Source of the DNA: Bacteroidales bacterium
Lineage (GTDB): Bacteria; Bacteroidota; Bacteroidia; Bacteroidales; UBA12077
NCBI GenBank assembly: GCA_019038645.1
Contig: JAHOYT010000046.1
Span: 1 to 64,000, forward strand
Length of the DNA: 64,000 nt
Direction of reading: 5' to 3'
The notes under the pieces are model-generated. The model saw only the letters and a program-made list of their open reading frames with translations. It did no database searches and had not been told where the DNA came from. Below are positions 27,999 through 58,623 of the stretch, one piece after another; within the stretch, counting starts at the first letter, position 1; the number at the start of each line of letters is the position of its first letter. The position numbers and the translations under genes are program-made.

Positions 27999-28074
27999 CG
28001 GGATGTAGCTCAGCCAGGTTTAGAGTACGCGTCTGGGGGGCGTGGGGTCGGAAGTTCGAATCTTCTCATCCCGA
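27999..28074 (+). tRNA. tRNA-Pro (anticodon GGG)
   Basis: Full cloverleaf. Acceptor CGGGATG pairs with CATCCCG; D arm GCTC/GAGT; anticodon stem CGCGT/GCGTG with two G-T pairs around loop CTGGGGG, giving anticodon GGG; T arm GGAAG-TTCGAAT-CTTCT. Discriminator base A at 28074. The CCA end is not encoded (CAAAAA follows), so it must be added after transcription. A strong hairpin terminator begins two bases after the tRNA. Confidence 0.95.
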
Positions 28075-51630: not shown

Positions 51631-54120
51631 TCATTCAAATTCAATAATAGTAATTCCTGAACCACCAAACTGAACACTTTCGTCATGATATGATTTGATT
51701 ACATCAACAGTATCAAGGTATTGACGAATTAATTGTCGTAAAATACCATCACCTTTCCCATGTAATATTTTTACCGTATTAACATTGATTACAATGGCTT
51801 CATCGATAAAATCATTAACAATTTGTAATGCTTCTTCGGCCCGCTTTCCACGAACGTCAATTTCGGGTTTAAATTTTAAACGACGTTCACCAAAATCCCA
51901 CGATGAGCTACGTCCTGATCCGGAAGCGTTTCCTGATAATTGCTTGTATCTTTTTTCAGATATTTTCTCTAAACGTTTAATATCCAGTGTGGTTATCATA
52001 TTACCAAAGGCAACCATTATACTTTTGCCATTCACGTCAAGCACTTCACCTACAGAATCCTGCCCGAATAATTTTACCTTATCACCTTTTTCATAGCTAT
52101 TTGAATTCGGAGCCTTTTGAACCTCAACTTTATCTGAATCTTGTTTATCAGATTTTTTCTTTCCAAATTTTTCACGCTGTTTTAACTTCTCAATTTTACG
52201 ATTAATTCTTTTTTCTTCTTCTGAATCAATTGTGCTTAATTGTTCTTTAAAGTCTGTGAGGTTCTTACGTGCTGTCTTCGTTTTTTCTTTGTCGGCCTGA
52301 TTTTCTTTTATTTCGCGAATTGTATTTTCAATTTGTTTATTAACTCCTGCCAATAATGCTTCTGCATCTTCTTTTGCCTTTCCGGCAATTTCTTTTCGTG
52401 TTTTTTCTGCTGACTCAAGCTCTGTTGTATATCTTGAAATTTGCTCTTCAAGTTTTTTCTCCGATTTTCTGATATTATCACGTTTTGTTTCCCAGTAACG
52501 CTTATCTCGTAAAATATCTTTCAGGTTTTTATCAAAATCGATATGATCTTTACCTATTTTATCGGTTGCTTTTTTAAGAATATCTTCAGGCAATCCAATT
52601 TTTCGTGCAATCTCAAAGGCAAAAGAACTACCGGGTTCACCAATTGACAAACGAAATAAAGGTTGAATTTTTGCTGTATCAAACAACATTGCTCCATTTT
52701 CAATTCCACTTGTTGCCGAAGCAAAATGTTTTAATGATGTATAATGTGTCGTTATTACACCCTGAACTTTTTTGTGATTTAACGAATCCAGAATTGCCTC
52801 GGCAATAGCACCACCAAGCATTGGTTCAGTACCCGATCCAAATTCATCTATTAAAATTAAAGTTCCGCTATTTGCCGACTTTAAGAAATTTTTCATATTC
52901 AGCAAATATGAACTATAAGTACTTAAATCATTTTCAATGGACTGATCATCACCAATATTCAAAAATAGATTATGAAATATACCTATTTCGGAATTTTCGT
53001 TCATAGGAACTAAAAGCCCGCATTGAAACATATATTGCAGTAAACCAACCGTTTGCAAACAAACTGATTTTCCGCCGGCATTAGGGCCTGAAATAAGTAA
53101 TATTCTCTGATTATCATCATTTAATTCAATATCCAAAGGAACTACAGTGCGCGACTCCTCTTTAAACGACAAATAAAGTAATGGATGAACAGCCTGTTTC
53201 CACTGAACCATCGGACGATCGTTAAATATTGGTTTTATTCCGTTCAGTTTATTAGCAAGTAATGCTTTAGAACGAATAAAATCAATAGTTCCCATGTAAT
53301 CATAAGCCAAAAACAAATCATCGATGTAAGGACGAATATCATCTGCAAAAAGAGTAAGAATCTTTACAATTTCACGGCGTTCAGCATAATAAAGCTCCCT
53401 AATATCATTATTAATTTCAACTATTTCTGAAGGCTCAATGTAAGCAGTTTTTCCAGTTGCTGATTCGTCAAGTATGAGTCCTTTTATTTTTCTTTTATGC
53501 GATGCATCGACAGGTATCGTTGCTCTGCCATCACGAATAGATAAAGAAACATCCTGTTCAACTATTCCGTTTTTTTGAGCATCTTTTAAAATAGCATGCA
53601 GGCGTTTCGAAACAGCACTTTCCTTGTCGCGAATATTTTTTCGGATTATATTTAGCTCAGGCGATGCATTGTCTTTGATCTTTCCATGTTTTGTAATAAT
53701 TGCATCAATACGATCGAAAATAAAAGGATAAAGTTTTACATTCTCCGTCAGTTTTTGCAAATAAGGGTACTTTTCATCTTCTTTGCGTGCCTTAAAAAAT
53801 TTAAGTATTGCATTTATTGTTTCCAACGATCGTTTCAGATCAAATAACTCTTCGGATAAAAGATAAGTTCCCACTATCTTTATCTTTGTTAATGCAGGAG
53901 TTAAATCAATAAAGTGATTTAATGGAAAATCCTCTTCCATTAACATTATTTGTTTAAACTCACTAACCTGACTAACCAGAGTTTCAATAAAAGAATATTT
54001 GTTTGAAAATCGAATTTTATCAACCCGCATTTGCCCCAGGTTACTTAAGCAACCACCTTTTAGCATATCACGGATTTTATCAAACCCTATTTTTTGTTCA
54101 AAATTTTCCGGGTAAAGCAC
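51631..54120 (-). CDS. mutS2: MutS2 family ATPase/endonuclease with Smr domain
   Basis: MutS2-type protein; in other bacteria MutS2 suppresses recombination and rescues collided ribosomes. GTG start gives the canonical MLYPENFEQKIGFDKIRDML. Walker A GPNAGGKS (345-352), Walker B TLILIDEFGSGTEPMLGGAI, signature GEPGSSFAFEIARKIGLPED, coiled coil about 520-640, and Smr nuclease domain at the C-terminus (about 755-829, DVRGKRAEEALQIVNDFIDE and LHGKGDGILR). Length 829 aa. Followed by the glycan genes on the same strand. Confidence 0.96.
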   Translation of the reverse strand: MLYPENFEQKIGFDKIRDMLKGGCLSNLGQMRVDKIRFSNKYSFIETLVSQVSEFKQIMLMEEDFPLNHFIDLTPALTKIKIVGTYLLSEELFDLKRSLETINAILKFFKARKEDEKYPYLQKLTENVKLYPFIFDRIDAIITKHGKIKDNASPELNIIRKNIRDKESAVSKRLHAILKDAQKNGIVEQDVSLSIRDGRATIPVDASHKRKIKGLILDESATGKTAYIEPSEIVEINNDIRELYYAERREIVKILTLFADDIRPYIDDLFLAYDYMGTIDFIRSKALLANKLNGIKPIFNDRPMVQWKQAVHPLLYLSFKEESRTVVPLDIELNDDNQRILLISGPNAGGKSVCLQTVGLLQYMFQCGLLVPMNENSEIGIFHNLFLNIGDDQSIENDLSTYSSYLLNMKNFLKSANSGTLILIDEFGSGTEPMLGGAIAEAILDSLNHKKVQGVITTHYTSLKHFASATSGIENGAMLFDTAKIQPLFRLSIGEPGSSFAFEIARKIGLPEDILKKATDKIGKDHIDFDKNLKDILRDKRYWETKRDNIRKSEKKLEEQISRYTTELESAEKTRKEIAGKAKEDAEALLAGVNKQIENTIREIKENQADKEKTKTARKNLTDFKEQLSTIDSEEEKRINRKIEKLKQREKFGKKKSDKQDSDKVEVQKAPNSNSYEKGDKVKLFGQDSVGEVLDVNGKSIMVAFGNMITTLDIKRLEKISEKRYKQLSGNASGSGRSSSWDFGERRLKFKPEIDVRGKRAEEALQIVNDFIDEAIVINVNTVKILHGKGDGILRQLIRQYLDTVDVIKSYHDESVQFGGSGITIIEFE

Positions 54121-54304: not shown

Positions 54305-54652
54305 ATGTTTCAGGTTGGATTGTTTTCGACATTTATTCCCTATCTATTATTTGCTTTTGCATATATTGGATTTTTAGGAACTAATGCTTTAAACAAAAAT
54401 CAATATATTGATTGTCCTGATTTACCAGCTGGATATGAGATTTCTTTTATAGATGAATATCGCACAGTATCCTCTTTTTATTCCAGTGAAAAAGATGAAA
54501 TAAATGTTTCATCTTATTTGATTGAGCCCAAACTAAATCTTAAAGAGATTAATTCTCACACCAAATTTAGTCACTTCGACAGATTTGATATTGAAAATTT
54601 ATTCACTAATGGCTACATTTTAGCCAGACCTCCTCCTCCAATAAACGCATAA
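54305..54652 (+). CDS. Small single-pass membrane protein ahead of the heme-type receptor
   Basis: 115-aa protein starting MFQVGLFSTFIPYLLFAFAY, a transmembrane helix or uncleaved signal (about 4-25), followed by a polar domain and ending ARPPPPINA. I recognise no family. It lies 150 bp upstream of the receptor start on the same strand, and a similar kind of small protein with a proline-rich tail is, as I recall, often found ahead of TonB-dependent receptors in Bacteroidota. The proline-rich end could be a periplasmic interaction motif. Function unknown; possibly an uptake accessory protein. ATG at 54305 is the only start that keeps the helix. Confidence 0.6.
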   Translation: MFQVGLFSTFIPYLLFAFAYIGFLGTNALNKNQYIDCPDLPAGYEISFIDEYRTVSSFYSSEKDEINVSSYLIEPKLNLKEINSHTKFSHFDRFDIENLFTNGYILARPPPPINA

Positions 54653-54801
54653 GTTTCTTATAAAACATTTCGATTTAGCTTAATACTTTTTTACAAAAGC
54701 TATAACAATTCTATTTATTTAATAGCTAATACTAAGCAAATTAAGATGCAAGAATTATTTTGCCGATCTTATTTTGTAAAGTATTAATCACAACAAATCA
54801 T

Positions 54802-57099
54802 ATGCATTTCTGTAAGTTCATTATTTTCATTACTATATTTATTATAGGCTATAGCAATATTTCGTTTGCTCAAGAAGAAAATAAATATAAATTAAAAGTG
54901 CTTCAAGAAAGCACCAATCAGCCTATTCAATATGCCAATGTAATTTGGCGTGATCTTAAAAATATTCAATTACAAGGAGGTACTATATCCGATACTCAAG
55001 GAGATATTCAAATTAATAAAATAAATAACGATGTAGTAATACTTTCAGTTTCGTGTTTAGGTTATAAATCATTTAATGACACTGTTTTGCTTTCGCAAAC
55101 ACAAGAAATCTATTTACATGAAGATATTTTTAATTTGGAACAGGTTACTGTTACAGGAACCAGAACTCCATATACATTAAAGAAAGCACCGGTACTTACA
55201 CAAATAATTTCTAATAAGGAAATTGAAACTGTTGATGCCATTACAATATTAAATGTTCTGGAAACCGAAATTCCTGGATTTGAAATGTCCCAGAAAGGAT
55301 ACGGGGCAGCAATAAGTATGCAAGGTTTGGATGCAAACTACACCCTAATTCTAATGGATGGTGAGCGTATGGCTGGTGAAACCGAAGGGAATATTGATTA
55401 TTCAAAAATTAATGCTGGTAATATTGAACGAATTGAAATTATTCGTGGAGCTAGTTCTACATTATATGGATCAAGTGCAATGGGTGGCGTTATTAACATT
55501 ATTACCAAAAAACCTAAAAACAAAATAGATTTGAATGTTAATTTGAGATATGCAGAATTAAATCAGCAAAATTTCACAAAATTAGAACTGGAACAAGAAG
55601 ATGACGGTGATACCCGGTTATATAAACGAAGACATGACTTACCAAACTTAAATGGGAATATAAATTTCGGAATCCGAAATGAAAAATTTTACAGTAATAC
55701 CTTCCTAAATTTTAAAAGCGCAGATGGATATCAACTTTATGATTCTAAAAGCAATTTAAAATACTATCCCACATCTGACACTACCATAATTGATAATGAG
55801 AATACGGGTACTGCTACAAGCAATATTAACGGTTTTATGGATTACACTATTTCGCAAAAGCTAGGCTATGACTCCGGGGGAAAATGGGCACATGAATTAA
55901 GAGCTAATTATTACGAGCACGAAGATTTTGATTTTGATAATAATAGTATTCACAACCTGTTCAGAAACTTTTCCATTGCCGGAAATACAAAGTATAGTTT
56001 CAATTCTGAACAAGGACTAAACCTTACATTAAATCATGATACTTACAATAAGTATGATGTATTCGACAAATCAAATGTTGAAAACCAAATGTATAGACAA
56101 ACTTTTAATAATATTAAATTAAGCTATACAGGAAAATTAGGGGAAAAACATAATTTACTGGCTGGTTTTGAAAACTTGTATGAAGAATTAGGTACTGATA
56201 TGTTCGATTCGACTCAAATAATGCATAACAAAAGTACAAACGATATTGTATTGCTTTTACAGGATGAGTTTAGCGTAACTGAAAATATTATGATTGTGGC
56301 AGGAATTAGAAATGGCTGGCATACAGCTTATAATTACTACATTACTCCATCTGTTACTGCCAAATACTCATTGAATCCATTTAATATTAGATTATCATAT
56401 GCAAGAGGATTCCGTTCTCCAAGTTTAAAAGAGCTTTATACCAATTGGGATCACTTAGGTATGTTTCAAATTATTGGCAATCCTGACTTAACACCAGAAC
56501 AAAATAACTATTATGCATTTTCTACTGATTACACAAATATTAAGAATCATATTAATGTAACACTAATAGCTTCTTACAACCATATTTATAATAAAATTGG
56601 CGGCTACTGGACTGATAATCAGAAACTATTCGTTTACACTAACCTGGATGAATTGTCAGCATTTAACATAGAATCTATTTTAAAATGGAAATTCTATAAA
56701 GGTTTTACATTAAAAAGCGGCTACGTTTATTCATGGATAGAACAAAAAAATGAAGAGTATAATTTATCTGCACTCAGTCCGCATGCTTTCACTTCACAAC
56801 TTTCTTACAGTTTAACACACAATAAATATCAATTAACTGCAAATATTTCCGGTAAAATAACCGGTAATAAGGAGTATCATGTTTTGGATGATGATGACGG
56901 GTACTTTCCGGGAGAATATTATCGTGTTAAACTACCAACATATTCAATCTGGAATGTAACAATTAACCAAAACTATTTAAGATATTCAATAAATGCCGGA
57001 GTAAAAAACTTATTTGATTATATGGCCCCAATTACAAATTTTAATACATCGACAAGCCCTGGCAGAAGATTTTTTATAAGCATAGGATATAAATTTTAA
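54802..57099 (+). CDS. TonB-dependent receptor, heme-receptor-like
   Basis: Outer-membrane receptor of 765 aa. Start at 54802 gives the signal peptide (HFCKFIIFITIFIIGYSNIS); an in-frame TTG at 54760 is unlikely. Residues about 25-115 form a carboxypeptidase-regulatory-like domain, ending near VTVTGTRTPYTL; the plug (about 120-230) has SMQGLDANYTLILMDGERMA and IEIIRGASSTLYGSSAMGGV. The barrel carries YARGFRSPSLKELYTNWDHL and GNPDLTPEQN, corresponding to the FRAP and NPNL boxes of heme receptors such as HmuR, with a His (WDHLG) between, as heme-binding receptors have. Ends in an aromatic residue (GYKF). A HmuY-like lipoprotein follows 33 bp later, which supports heme uptake. Confidence 0.85.
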   Translation: MHFCKFIIFITIFIIGYSNISFAQEENKYKLKVLQESTNQPIQYANVIWRDLKNIQLQGGTISDTQGDIQINKINNDVVILSVSCLGYKSFNDTVLLSQTQEIYLHEDIFNLEQVTVTGTRTPYTLKKAPVLTQIISNKEIETVDAITILNVLETEIPGFEMSQKGYGAAISMQGLDANYTLILMDGERMAGETEGNIDYSKINAGNIERIEIIRGASSTLYGSSAMGGVINIITKKPKNKIDLNVNLRYAELNQQNFTKLELEQEDDGDTRLYKRRHDLPNLNGNINFGIRNEKFYSNTFLNFKSADGYQLYDSKSNLKYYPTSDTTIIDNENTGTATSNINGFMDYTISQKLGYDSGGKWAHELRANYYEHEDFDFDNNSIHNLFRNFSIAGNTKYSFNSEQGLNLTLNHDTYNKYDVFDKSNVENQMYRQTFNNIKLSYTGKLGEKHNLLAGFENLYEELGTDMFDSTQIMHNKSTNDIVLLLQDEFSVTENIMIVAGIRNGWHTAYNYYITPSVTAKYSLNPFNIRLSYARGFRSPSLKELYTNWDHLGMFQIIGNPDLTPEQNNYYAFSTDYTNIKNHINVTLIASYNHIYNKIGGYWTDNQKLFVYTNLDELSAFNIESILKWKFYKGFTLKSGYVYSWIEQKNEEYNLSALSPHAFTSQLSYSLTHNKYQLTANISGKITGNKEYHVLDDDDGYFPGEYYRVKLPTYSIWNVTINQNYLRYSINAGVKNLFDYMAPITNFNTSTSPGRRFFISIGYKF

Positions 57100-57132
57100 C
57101 AAAATAATTATTCACTACTAAACCAAAAAAAG

Positions 57133-57741
57133 ATGAAAAGAACTAGTTTATTATTAATTACTGTATTATTTAGTGCAGTTTATTTATTTACAGCATGCGA
57201 GGAAGAAGATAATATAATTCCGGCTACTGTAGGAACCATAACGGTCGATGCATCCGATTATAGCAGTTGGGTATATTTTTCATTTAAAGATGATACAGTT
57301 GTAACTGTGACAGATTTTGAGAACTCTACTGATTGGGATATAGGTTTCCATCGCTCTGATTTAAGACTAAATTGTGGAATGTCTGGCACAGGACTTGGGG
57401 GGAGTTATGCTACAGGGATAACCAACTTTGATGAAGTTATTACTGCTCCGGAAACAGGTTATTCACTAAACGATATGATTGAAATTGCTACTGACATTTC
57501 AACTTTTCCTCCGGGTATGGAAACTGTACCGGGCGATACTATTCTGGCTAACTGGATTAGTTTTGAAATAGGAGCAAGTGGCCCGGAATATACTTATAGC
57601 AACGAAATTTTCATTATAAAAACGGCGGATGGCAAATATGCAAAAATATGGCTAAAAGATTACTTTAACGATGAAGCACAAGGTGGTCATATAACCATGA
57701 AATATTTGTATCAAACTGAAGGAAATACAAAATTGGATTAA
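57133..57741 (+). CDS. HmuY-like heme-binding lipoprotein
   Basis: Predicted surface lipoprotein of 202 aa with lipobox LFTAC (C22). Resembles HmuY-family proteins: VDASDYSSWVYFSFKDDTVV and NSTDWDIGFHRSDLRLNCGM, then GTGLGGSYATG. HmuY of Porphyromonas passes heme to HmuR, and here a receptor with heme-type motifs is just upstream. The only histidines are H73 and one near residue 185; the middle region where HmuY places its two heme-binding histidines has none, but has Met115 and Met129. Some HmuY relatives use Met ligands, so this may be one, or the ligand may differ. A strong terminator follows at 57770-57796. Confidence 0.75.
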   Translation: MKRTSLLLITVLFSAVYLFTACEEEDNIIPATVGTITVDASDYSSWVYFSFKDDTVVTVTDFENSTDWDIGFHRSDLRLNCGMSGTGLGGSYATGITNFDEVITAPETGYSLNDMIEIATDISTFPPGMETVPGDTILANWISFEIGASGPEYTYSNEIFIIKTADGKYAKIWLKDYFNDEAQGGHITMKYLYQTEGNTKLD

Positions 57742-57769: not shown

Positions 57770-57796
57770 AAAGTCTCTCAAATTTGAGAGACTTTT
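57770..57796 (+). terminator. Terminator of the heme-type locus
   Basis: AAAGTCTCTCA (57770-57780), AATT loop, TGAGAGACTTT (57785-57795), then a T and an AT-rich tract: an 11-bp perfect stem. Lies 29 bp after the HmuY-like gene. Confidence 0.9.
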
Positions 57797-57903: not shown

Positions 57904-58623
57904 TTGAAGAAACATCAAACCTTAATCTATATAACGCTTTTTGCAATTTCAATGGGAATTTTTGAAGGTGCTGTTGTGATCTATCTCAGAGCTCTTTATT
58001 ATCCTGCAGGATTTGCTTTTCCTCTAACACCAATTGACAATTATATTGCAATTACTGAAATAGTACGCGAATTTGCTTCATTAATTATGTTGCTATCCGT
58101 TGGAATTATTGCAGGTAAAAACTTTTCACAACGATTTGCCTGGTTTATATATTCATTCGCAGTTTGGGATATTATCTATTATGTGTTTTTGTGGTTAATG
58201 TTATCATGGCCGGAAAGTCTCTTAACCTGGGATATTCTGTTTCTTTTGCCTGTTACGTGGACAGGTCCTGTTATAGCTCCTGTATTAGTATCTATATTAA
58301 TGATTTTGTTAGCTATGGTTATTTATTACTTTAATCTTAAAAGCAATTTTAAAGTAAGAATATTACGAAAAGAGTGGATGATGTTAATACTTGGGTCCTT
58401 TTTTGTTTTTGTATCATTTATTTGGGATTATTGCCAGTTTCTTATCAAGAATATTTCATTATCCGAATTACGGGAAAAATCATTTACAAACAAACTTTTC
58501 GATCTTTCAGTAAAATATGTTCCTGAAAAATTTACATGGATTATTTTTCTTTCAGGAGTACTGGTGTTGTGTTTTGCTTTATCTCTATTTGTTTTAAGAA
58601 ATAAAAAAAGCGAAACTTACTAG
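57904..58623 (+). CDS. Integral membrane protein of unknown function
   Basis: 239-aa protein with about six or seven transmembrane segments and a TTG start (MKKHQTLIYITLFAISMGIF). GIFEGAVVIYLRALYYPAGF near residue 18-37 contains a Glu and Arg within the first membrane region; EIVREFASLIMLLSVGIIAG, SQRFAWFIYSFAVWDIIYYV and WDILFLLPVTWTGPVIAPVL follow. I do not recognise the family. It is a single gene between two terminators, so it has its own control; the TTG start and the hydrophobic charge pairs suggest a transporter or sensor, but no function is proposed. Confidence 0.7.
   Translation: MKKHQTLIYITLFAISMGIFEGAVVIYLRALYYPAGFAFPLTPIDNYIAITEIVREFASLIMLLSVGIIAGKNFSQRFAWFIYSFAVWDIIYYVFLWLMLSWPESLLTWDILFLLPVTWTGPVIAPVLVSILMILLAMVIYYFNLKSNFKVRILRKEWMMLILGSFFVFVSFIWDYCQFLIKNISLSELREKSFTNKLFDLSVKYVPEKFTWIIFLSGVLVLCFALSLFVLRNKKSETY

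Follow-up and report, generated by a model that had tools for sequence, protein, structure and literature searches.

What is a putative small membrane protein doing in front of a HmuR-like receptor gene? The question arises at 54305..57741 of the 64,000-nucleotide (nt) stretch analysed here (the window, from contig JAHOYT010000046.1 of a Bacteroidales bacterium), where a TonB-dependent receptor and a HmuY-family lipoprotein are preceded, on the + strand, by an open reading frame (ORF) of 115 residues at 54305..54652 with the tail ARPPPPINA. An earlier note on this DNA had left the small protein without a role. A likely role can now be assigned, one which that note had not proposed, because relatives of the ORF stand at the head of a same-strand TonB-receptor or heme operon in all 37 members that have at least 2.4 kb of downstream DNA. 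With a probability of about 0.7, we read it as an arrest leader that couples heme supply to the expression of heme operons, and bacteria of this order may thus sense heme by means of a nascent chain that the ribosome has yet to finish. To our knowledge, little is understood of how heme uptake and synthesis are tuned to supply in this order, many of whose members seem unable to start heme synthesis: a hemA match (E<=1e-30) is found in 20 of 79 sampled genomes, and 59 are without one. The genome from which the window comes (G000) has no hemA or hemH match at E<=0.001 and is therefore probably a heme auxotroph.

A family of small upstream reading frames

The small ORF is a real gene, since it has homologues with conserved ends, and no other of the 97 ORFs of 50-300 residues in the window carries such a tail. 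Searching with its sequence alone returned one relative of the same genus (41% identical) and one distant one. A first profile built on three sequences added only two weak matches at phylum level (296 genomes), in frames of 614 and 384 residues, and a DNA pattern for MFQxGLF, which matched in 15 of 393 genomes and mostly in other proteins, yielded three new members. Profiles of six and then 29 sequences led to 40 members in 40 genomes, all in one order. The last order-level search matched 40 of 393 genomes at E<=0.001, of which 36 are counted as members and four are not (G374, G414, G574 and G434). At class level (197 genomes, few of this order), the profile search met no member other than the window's own, five other matches lying in other or interrupted frames (three judged by translation, two by table). 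The 29 aligned members have no match in Pfam or NCBIfam at E<=0.01, plasmid records hold no match to the small protein, and the family is apparently undescribed.

The counts depend on several decisions. G374, G414 and G574 were dropped on the match table alone; rows of the six-sequence profile at E>=0.0087 were dropped save those inspected (G675, G408:C4, G534 and G057, the last at L141); and L007, L008, L056, L129-L133, L141, L142, L150 and L154 were dropped before counting. All but one of the 37 members counted for genomic context were found by the small protein alone, the other (G490) being first met in a test of hemA loci. Contig ends exclude three members from the 37: the contig stops 15 nt after the ORF in G477, 400 nt after it in G642, and ahead of the tail in G565. 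G434 (L179) is not counted because its protein has an FSRPPP tail but a different N-terminus and operon. This His-rich protein of 132 residues (L179:8422-8817, - strand), with an unrelated N-terminus and the tail KLFSRPPPYILLNI, lies 154 nt 5' of a CusA/CzcA-type metal efflux operon and resembles a leader for metal efflux that has the family's proposed stall tail. Its phylum is one in which a survey of RAPP/RGPP upstream ORFs reported none that are copper-linked (PMC12992588).

Conserved ends and a free middle of near-constant length

Members are built of three parts. The N-terminus (MFxxGLFSTHxPY…Y) is hydrophobic and uncharged, the spacer that follows is not conserved in sequence but varies little in length, and RPPP stands at the C-terminal end. 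In the window, position counts and hydropathy place the hydrophobic segment, with its GLFSTxxPY...Y motif, at residues 5-28 (54317..54388, + strand), and tail comparison places the proposed stall site at R108-P112 (RPPPP; 54626..54640, + strand), three residues ahead of the stop. Gly5, the alignment anchor, is present in all 36 members, Pro12 in 31, Phe7 in 30, and Tyr13 and Tyr20 in 29 each, three members without an ATG at the profile's first column being numbered from that column. Residues 2-12 are free of charge in 35 of the 36. The 19-residue hydropathy mean reaches at least 1.6 near the N-terminus in 31 of 36 members and again past residue 40 in a single one; the N-terminal localization signal is judged by hydropathy only.

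The other end is equally distinctive. A tail of the form R[PG]P[PT], 2-9 residues ahead of the stop, is found in 31 of 33 members (26 RPPP, 3 RPPT and 2 RGPP), and an arginine-type tail in 37 of 39 once six further readable tails are included. As controls, a slightly looser pattern finds a comparable tail in one of 508 other ORFs of 80-200 residues at the same loci, and among 1739 ORFs of 70-260 residues from all loci a single one outside the family has R[PGA]PP followed by at most 12 residues. In 35 of 36 members the proposed stall arginine falls within residues 102-121, and the 75-80 or so residues of the middle are largely free to change, yet their number is kept. A Gibbs search of this middle found no conserved motif: its matches are not lined up, with scores of 242.5 against 234-242 in shuffled sets at width 7 and 275.9 against 259-273 at width 9. 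Pooled over 11 pairs, the ratio of nonsynonymous to synonymous differences (pN/pS) is 0.24 for the N-terminus, 0.65 for the middle and 0.23 for the tail, ratios that are rough as synonymous differences are near saturation. Both ends of the small protein are under purifying selection, and the codons of the tail's arginine and prolines vary, so that selection acts on the peptide. In the window's own taxonomic family, RGPP replaces RPPP at the same position (G021 and G022), and this natural replacement ties the tail to the RAPP/RGPP arrest class.

The family stands at the head of heme operons

The 37 operons comprise 22 that join a TonB receptor to a major facilitator superfamily (MFS) transporter, 10 of the hemACDBL type, 3 HmuY/HmuR loci (the window, G459 and G604) and 2 with a receptor alone. 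Directly behind the leader, 36 of them have hemA, HmuY or a receptor gene that looks intact, and in G037 a receptor remnant is followed by MFS-HemN-HemG-HemH; by Pfam, the first downstream gene of 26 members is Plug in 16, GlutR in 8 and HmuY in 2. HemN (18) and/or HemG (20) occur in 21 of the 22 TonB-MFS operons and HemH in 9, while the HemN/HemG content of the operon in G021 is left undecided by a contig end. Representatives of hemN, protoporphyrinogen oxidase, hemH, hemA, hemC, porphobilinogen synthase and hemL score above their NCBIfam cut-offs, and those of HemD and MFS match below cut-off.

Loci of type A (L024, L060, L065, L073 and others) run from a TonB receptor through an MFS protein (RhtX/FptX/AmpG-like, below cut-off) and HemN to HemG and often HemH; such an operon might take up a porphyrin precursor and complete heme synthesis from there. 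The two receptor-alone members share one genus, and their receptor resembles the TonB-MFS type. At L146 and L178 (G047 and G448), a lone receptor follows the leader, and the genes after it, on the opposite strand, resemble an ABC transport set by eye. The HmuY gene comes first in Porphyromonas gingivalis, and it also precedes the receptor at L062 and L064; in the window the receptor is first. Just 5' of the leader ORF of G570, at about 6790-7255 of L026 (L021 from 966), lies a tandem-repeat ORF with CENVSPAKVFSFH-type repeats and an LARPP end. Thirty hemA loci outside the class hold no family member; at one of them, L081, a frame of 233 residues closes with RAPP and 11 more residues, but this frame, on the strand opposite hemA, is a non-member.

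Constant synteny with heme genes, together with a hydrophobic segment, would be equally expected of an accessory subunit, that is, of an ordinary small membrane protein that aids heme uptake or synthesis and whose RPPP tail serves protein function. We hold this to be decidedly unlikely, as the central residues change freely while their number is kept, the ORF is 5' of the operon in 37 of 37 cases, the operon types differ in both enzymes and receptors, and the tail codons take part in RNA pairing.

RNA pairing between the tail and the downstream start

The promoter-like motif TAnnTTTG, which we take to be the Bacteroidota -7 element, occurs within 200 nt 5' of the upstream ORF (uORF) in 15 of 34 cases, inside it in 5 and in the gap between uORF and gene in none; no copy is present in that upstream span in the window. 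There, the upstream gene, which encodes MutS and Smr domains and starts at 54120, is divergent, so that the small ORF probably opens the transcript.

Base pairing between the tail codons and the start region of the next gene is predicted at p<0.05 in 9 of 32 members (Fisher 2.7e-6, or 9.5e-6 with a narrower window) in a composition-corrected test against dinucleotide-shuffled tails, and seven other region pairs used as controls give Fisher p values of 0.02-0.99. Other choices of window are weaker (tail -6..+24, p 0.0095; -3..+30, p 0.11; after the stop, 0..33, p 0.34). Without the correction, two controls inside the uORF score at p 0.0018 and 0.029, and the corrected test is therefore the one to be trusted. 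By energy, the pairing is strongest in G649, G571, G021 and G013. In the window, RNA folding predicts a weak pairing between the 5' arm GCATA (54647..54651, + strand) and the start-codon region of the receptor at 54801-54805, and a strong hairpin of 60 nt (54727..54786, + strand, -18.7 kcal/mol) that ends 15 nt 5' of the ATG at 54802. Over its full length the window's leader has an unusually stable fold (z -3.86, with none of 200 shuffles as stable). An Rfam scan of the window finds no riboswitch, its sole match being a tRNA at 27999.

These data also bear on what a stalled ribosome would do. Instead of freeing the start codon, the leader could act through Rho-dependent transcription termination, as does CruR, which likewise heads a TonB receptor operon (PMC9426467). 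The window and 22 other members of the 32 lack an individually significant pairing between tail and start, and no intrinsic-terminator-like site is listed on the + strand between the window's uORF and receptor, both of which would suit such an output. On the other hand, the pairing exceeds chance at the level of the family and singly in 9 of 32 members, and the window's leader is strongly folded; an output through Rho is thus possible, but we regard it as doubtful.

A proposed mechanism

In the mechanism that we propose, the nascent product of the small ORF would stall the ribosome at its C-terminal RPPP, and the ribosome held there would sustain expression of the heme genes that follow. For some members this effect may come, as in SecM-secA, from the ribosome's hold on uORF codons which, when free, form pairs with the start region of the next gene. 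When heme is scarce the stall would hold and the operon would be on, and when there is enough heme the stall would be relieved and the operon turned off. Such a polarity makes sense for a leader that stands in front of synthesis genes (hemACDBL) as well as genes for the uptake of heme or porphyrins. Sensing would most likely fall to the conserved membrane segment at the N-terminus, which would either bind heme or report a heme-dependent state of the membrane, and the unconserved spacer would keep this segment some 80 residues ahead of the arginine at the stall. In Escherichia coli without elongation factor P (EF-P), RPPP is the strongest XPPP stall in one protein context and belongs to the strong group in another (PMC4176338). 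Arrest sequences include RxPP with Gly, Ala, Ser or Pro at x, Pro is a partial substitute for Ala in ApdA and ApdP, and arrest of the RAPP type resists EF-P (PMC12992588). For the more far-reaching claim, that nascent-chain heme sensors occur across the order on synthesis and uptake operons, stall at RPPP and sense heme or a heme-dependent membrane state, we put the chances at about even.

A number of observations weigh against the arrest leader. First, ordinary polyproline stalls are relieved by EF-P. Resistance to this factor is reported for RAPP-type arrest, and the strength of RPPP comes from cells that lack it (PMC12992588, PMC4176338). Second, the conserved ends are not universal, with two of the 39 tails lacking arginine (NPPP in G034, LSPP in G675) and His10, the candidate ligand, present in only 18 of 36 members and replaced by Phe in the window. 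Third, the window's stem between tail and start has just five pairs (p 0.27), 12 of 32 members give no sign of pairing (z above -0.5), and one of the controls, inside the uORF, also reaches p 0.02. Finally, the leader stands at only 2 of the 20 hemA loci of the order and in only 2 of 20 genomes of the window's genus; the 400 nt before the contig end in G642 match none of 14 operon proteins tested; and the three closest HmuY-linked receptor loci (L004-L006) are without it. The earlier note's expectation of a small gene beside related receptors thus fails for these nearest relatives and holds for the 37 operons, three of them HmuY/HmuR loci including the window.

The signal itself could also be a different one: the ORF may well be an arrest leader, but with a stall that is relieved by membrane insertion of the N-terminal segment (by YidC/Sec or the proton-motive force), heme mattering only by way of respiration. 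An uncharged N-terminal tail in 35 of 36 members and the narrow spacing would agree with this, since short, narrow spacing is linked to YidC-monitoring peptides such as MifM (PMC10987492), and so would the lack of a conserved ligand set and of any motif in the middle. Nevertheless, all 37 members head TonB-receptor or heme operons and none heads sec or yidC, a confinement to heme that is not obviously expected of an insertion sensor, and residues 27-46 are net acidic on average, which, judged by hydropathy and charge only, disfavours a C-in tail. We therefore consider insertion sensing unlikely. If the leader does respond to heme as we propose, the family would offer an easy marker by which to recognize heme operons in genomes of this order.

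The heme locus of the window and its lipoprotein

As far as sequence can tell, the earlier description of the locus as HmuY/HmuR-like is correct. The HmuR-like TonB-dependent receptor (54802..57099, + strand; Pfam Plug 3.4e-22, barrel 2.2e-24) is taken to start at the ATG at 54802, where the ORF list had a longer form starting at TTG 54760; the gap from the stop of the small ORF to this ATG is 149 nt, in agreement with the 150 or so given before. Counted from that ATG, FRSP is at residue 537 and NPDL at 560 with a histidine between them, and the FRAP-like and NPDL boxes noted earlier are thus borne out. Several receptor models match without reaching their own cut-offs, TonB-hemin among them (1.7e-34), and we tentatively assign the receptor, which adjoins a HmuY lipoprotein, to the heme type. 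The lipoprotein (57133..57741, + strand) matches PF14064 with 98.7 bits (curated cut-off 27; E 4.7e-28) and the solved HmuY structure 3h8t at E 5.2e-34, so that its HmuY identity, also named in the earlier note, is not a matter of chance. A terminator-like inverted repeat, found by an inverted-repeat scan (57770..57795, no strand assigned), likely ends the unit; beyond it, at 57904-58623 on the + strand, lies a hydrophobic protein of 239 residues with no Pfam match.

One further picture, which starts from the earlier note, is that the lipoprotein holds heme through Met115 and Met129 and that the small ORF beside it is unrelated. The two methionines and the lack of histidines in the heme region are indeed there: the only histidines are H73 and H186, and the ligands His134 and His166 of P. 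gingivalis are absent from the 3h8t alignment, in which, read by eye, Ile stands opposite H166 and M129 near the first ligand site. Membership in the HmuY family speaks for such a picture, as P. gingivalis HmuY uses H134 and H166 and the Tfo and Bvu homologues can use two methionines (PMC8911585). In the three closest relatives found, however, M115 is replaced by S, S and T, and M129 corresponds to M, K and a gap; ligation by Met is thus not conserved (M115 kept in 0 of 3, M129 in 1 of 3), and the case for heme binding through these residues is weak. An AlphaFold model of the lipoprotein (4 sequences) has a predicted local distance difference test score (pLDDT) of 32, too low for use. Nor is the small ORF an unrelated neighbour, given its conserved association with heme operons, and we consider the picture as a whole very improbable.

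Comparison with known systems

Among the entries listed by our literature searches, in a collection that excludes many subscription papers and all preprints, there is no account of an arrest peptide or leader linked to heme in this phylum, nor a precedent for an arrest peptide that responds to heme. Like HmuY/HmuR of P. gingivalis (PMC8911585), the window pairs a receptor with a HmuY-family lipoprotein; it differs in that neither His ligand is kept, the receptor comes first and a leader ORF is present. SecM, MifM, VemP and other Sec/YidC arrest peptides share with our family the order of membrane or secretion signal, spacer and C-terminal arrest core, and a SecM-like stem between leader and start is predicted in part of the family. 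Those peptides head sec or yidC genes, whereas our family precedes heme operons and its members close with RPPP and a few further residues; the arrest-peptide clusters described for Bacteroidota end in NSP or NAP, and RPPP is named once there, as a search string (PMC10987492).

Two copper systems work along lines similar to those proposed here, with polarities opposite to each other (PMC9426467, PMC9973294). CruR, a copper-responsive uORF of Bordetella pertussis, belongs to DUF2946, which none of our 29 aligned members match, and it carries a CXXC copper motif, whereas the window's protein has a single Cys and no CXXC; it combines RAPP, copper operons and a Rho-termination output, and the family RPPP and heme operons (PMC9426467). 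CutF of Rhodobacter capsulatus is closer in form, being an exported nascent protein with a proline-rich C-terminus and a stem-loop that shields the ribosome-binding site of the next gene. It is unlike the family in its copper-binding motif, in the multicopper oxidase downstream and in that copper strengthens the delay (PMC9973294). As the survey of CutF-like proteins counts Bacteroidota among their hosts (PMC9973294), a partial overlap of that set with our family is possible. If our reading is true, heme would join copper as a signal that is read by a nascent peptide.

Finally, the small ORFs with RAPP or RGPP that lie 5' of TonB receptors resemble the family in tail class, localization signal and downstream genes. 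They are reported across Gram-negative bacteria, with copper-linked ones reported absent from some groups such as Bacteroidota (PMC12992588). That survey counted RAPP and RGPP, and neither RPPP nor heme appears in its main text; most members of the family would thus escape it, since RPPP lies outside its count, although the two RGPP members might not. If the arrest-leader reading is true, RPPP would take its place beside RAPP and RGPP as a natural regulatory arrest core.

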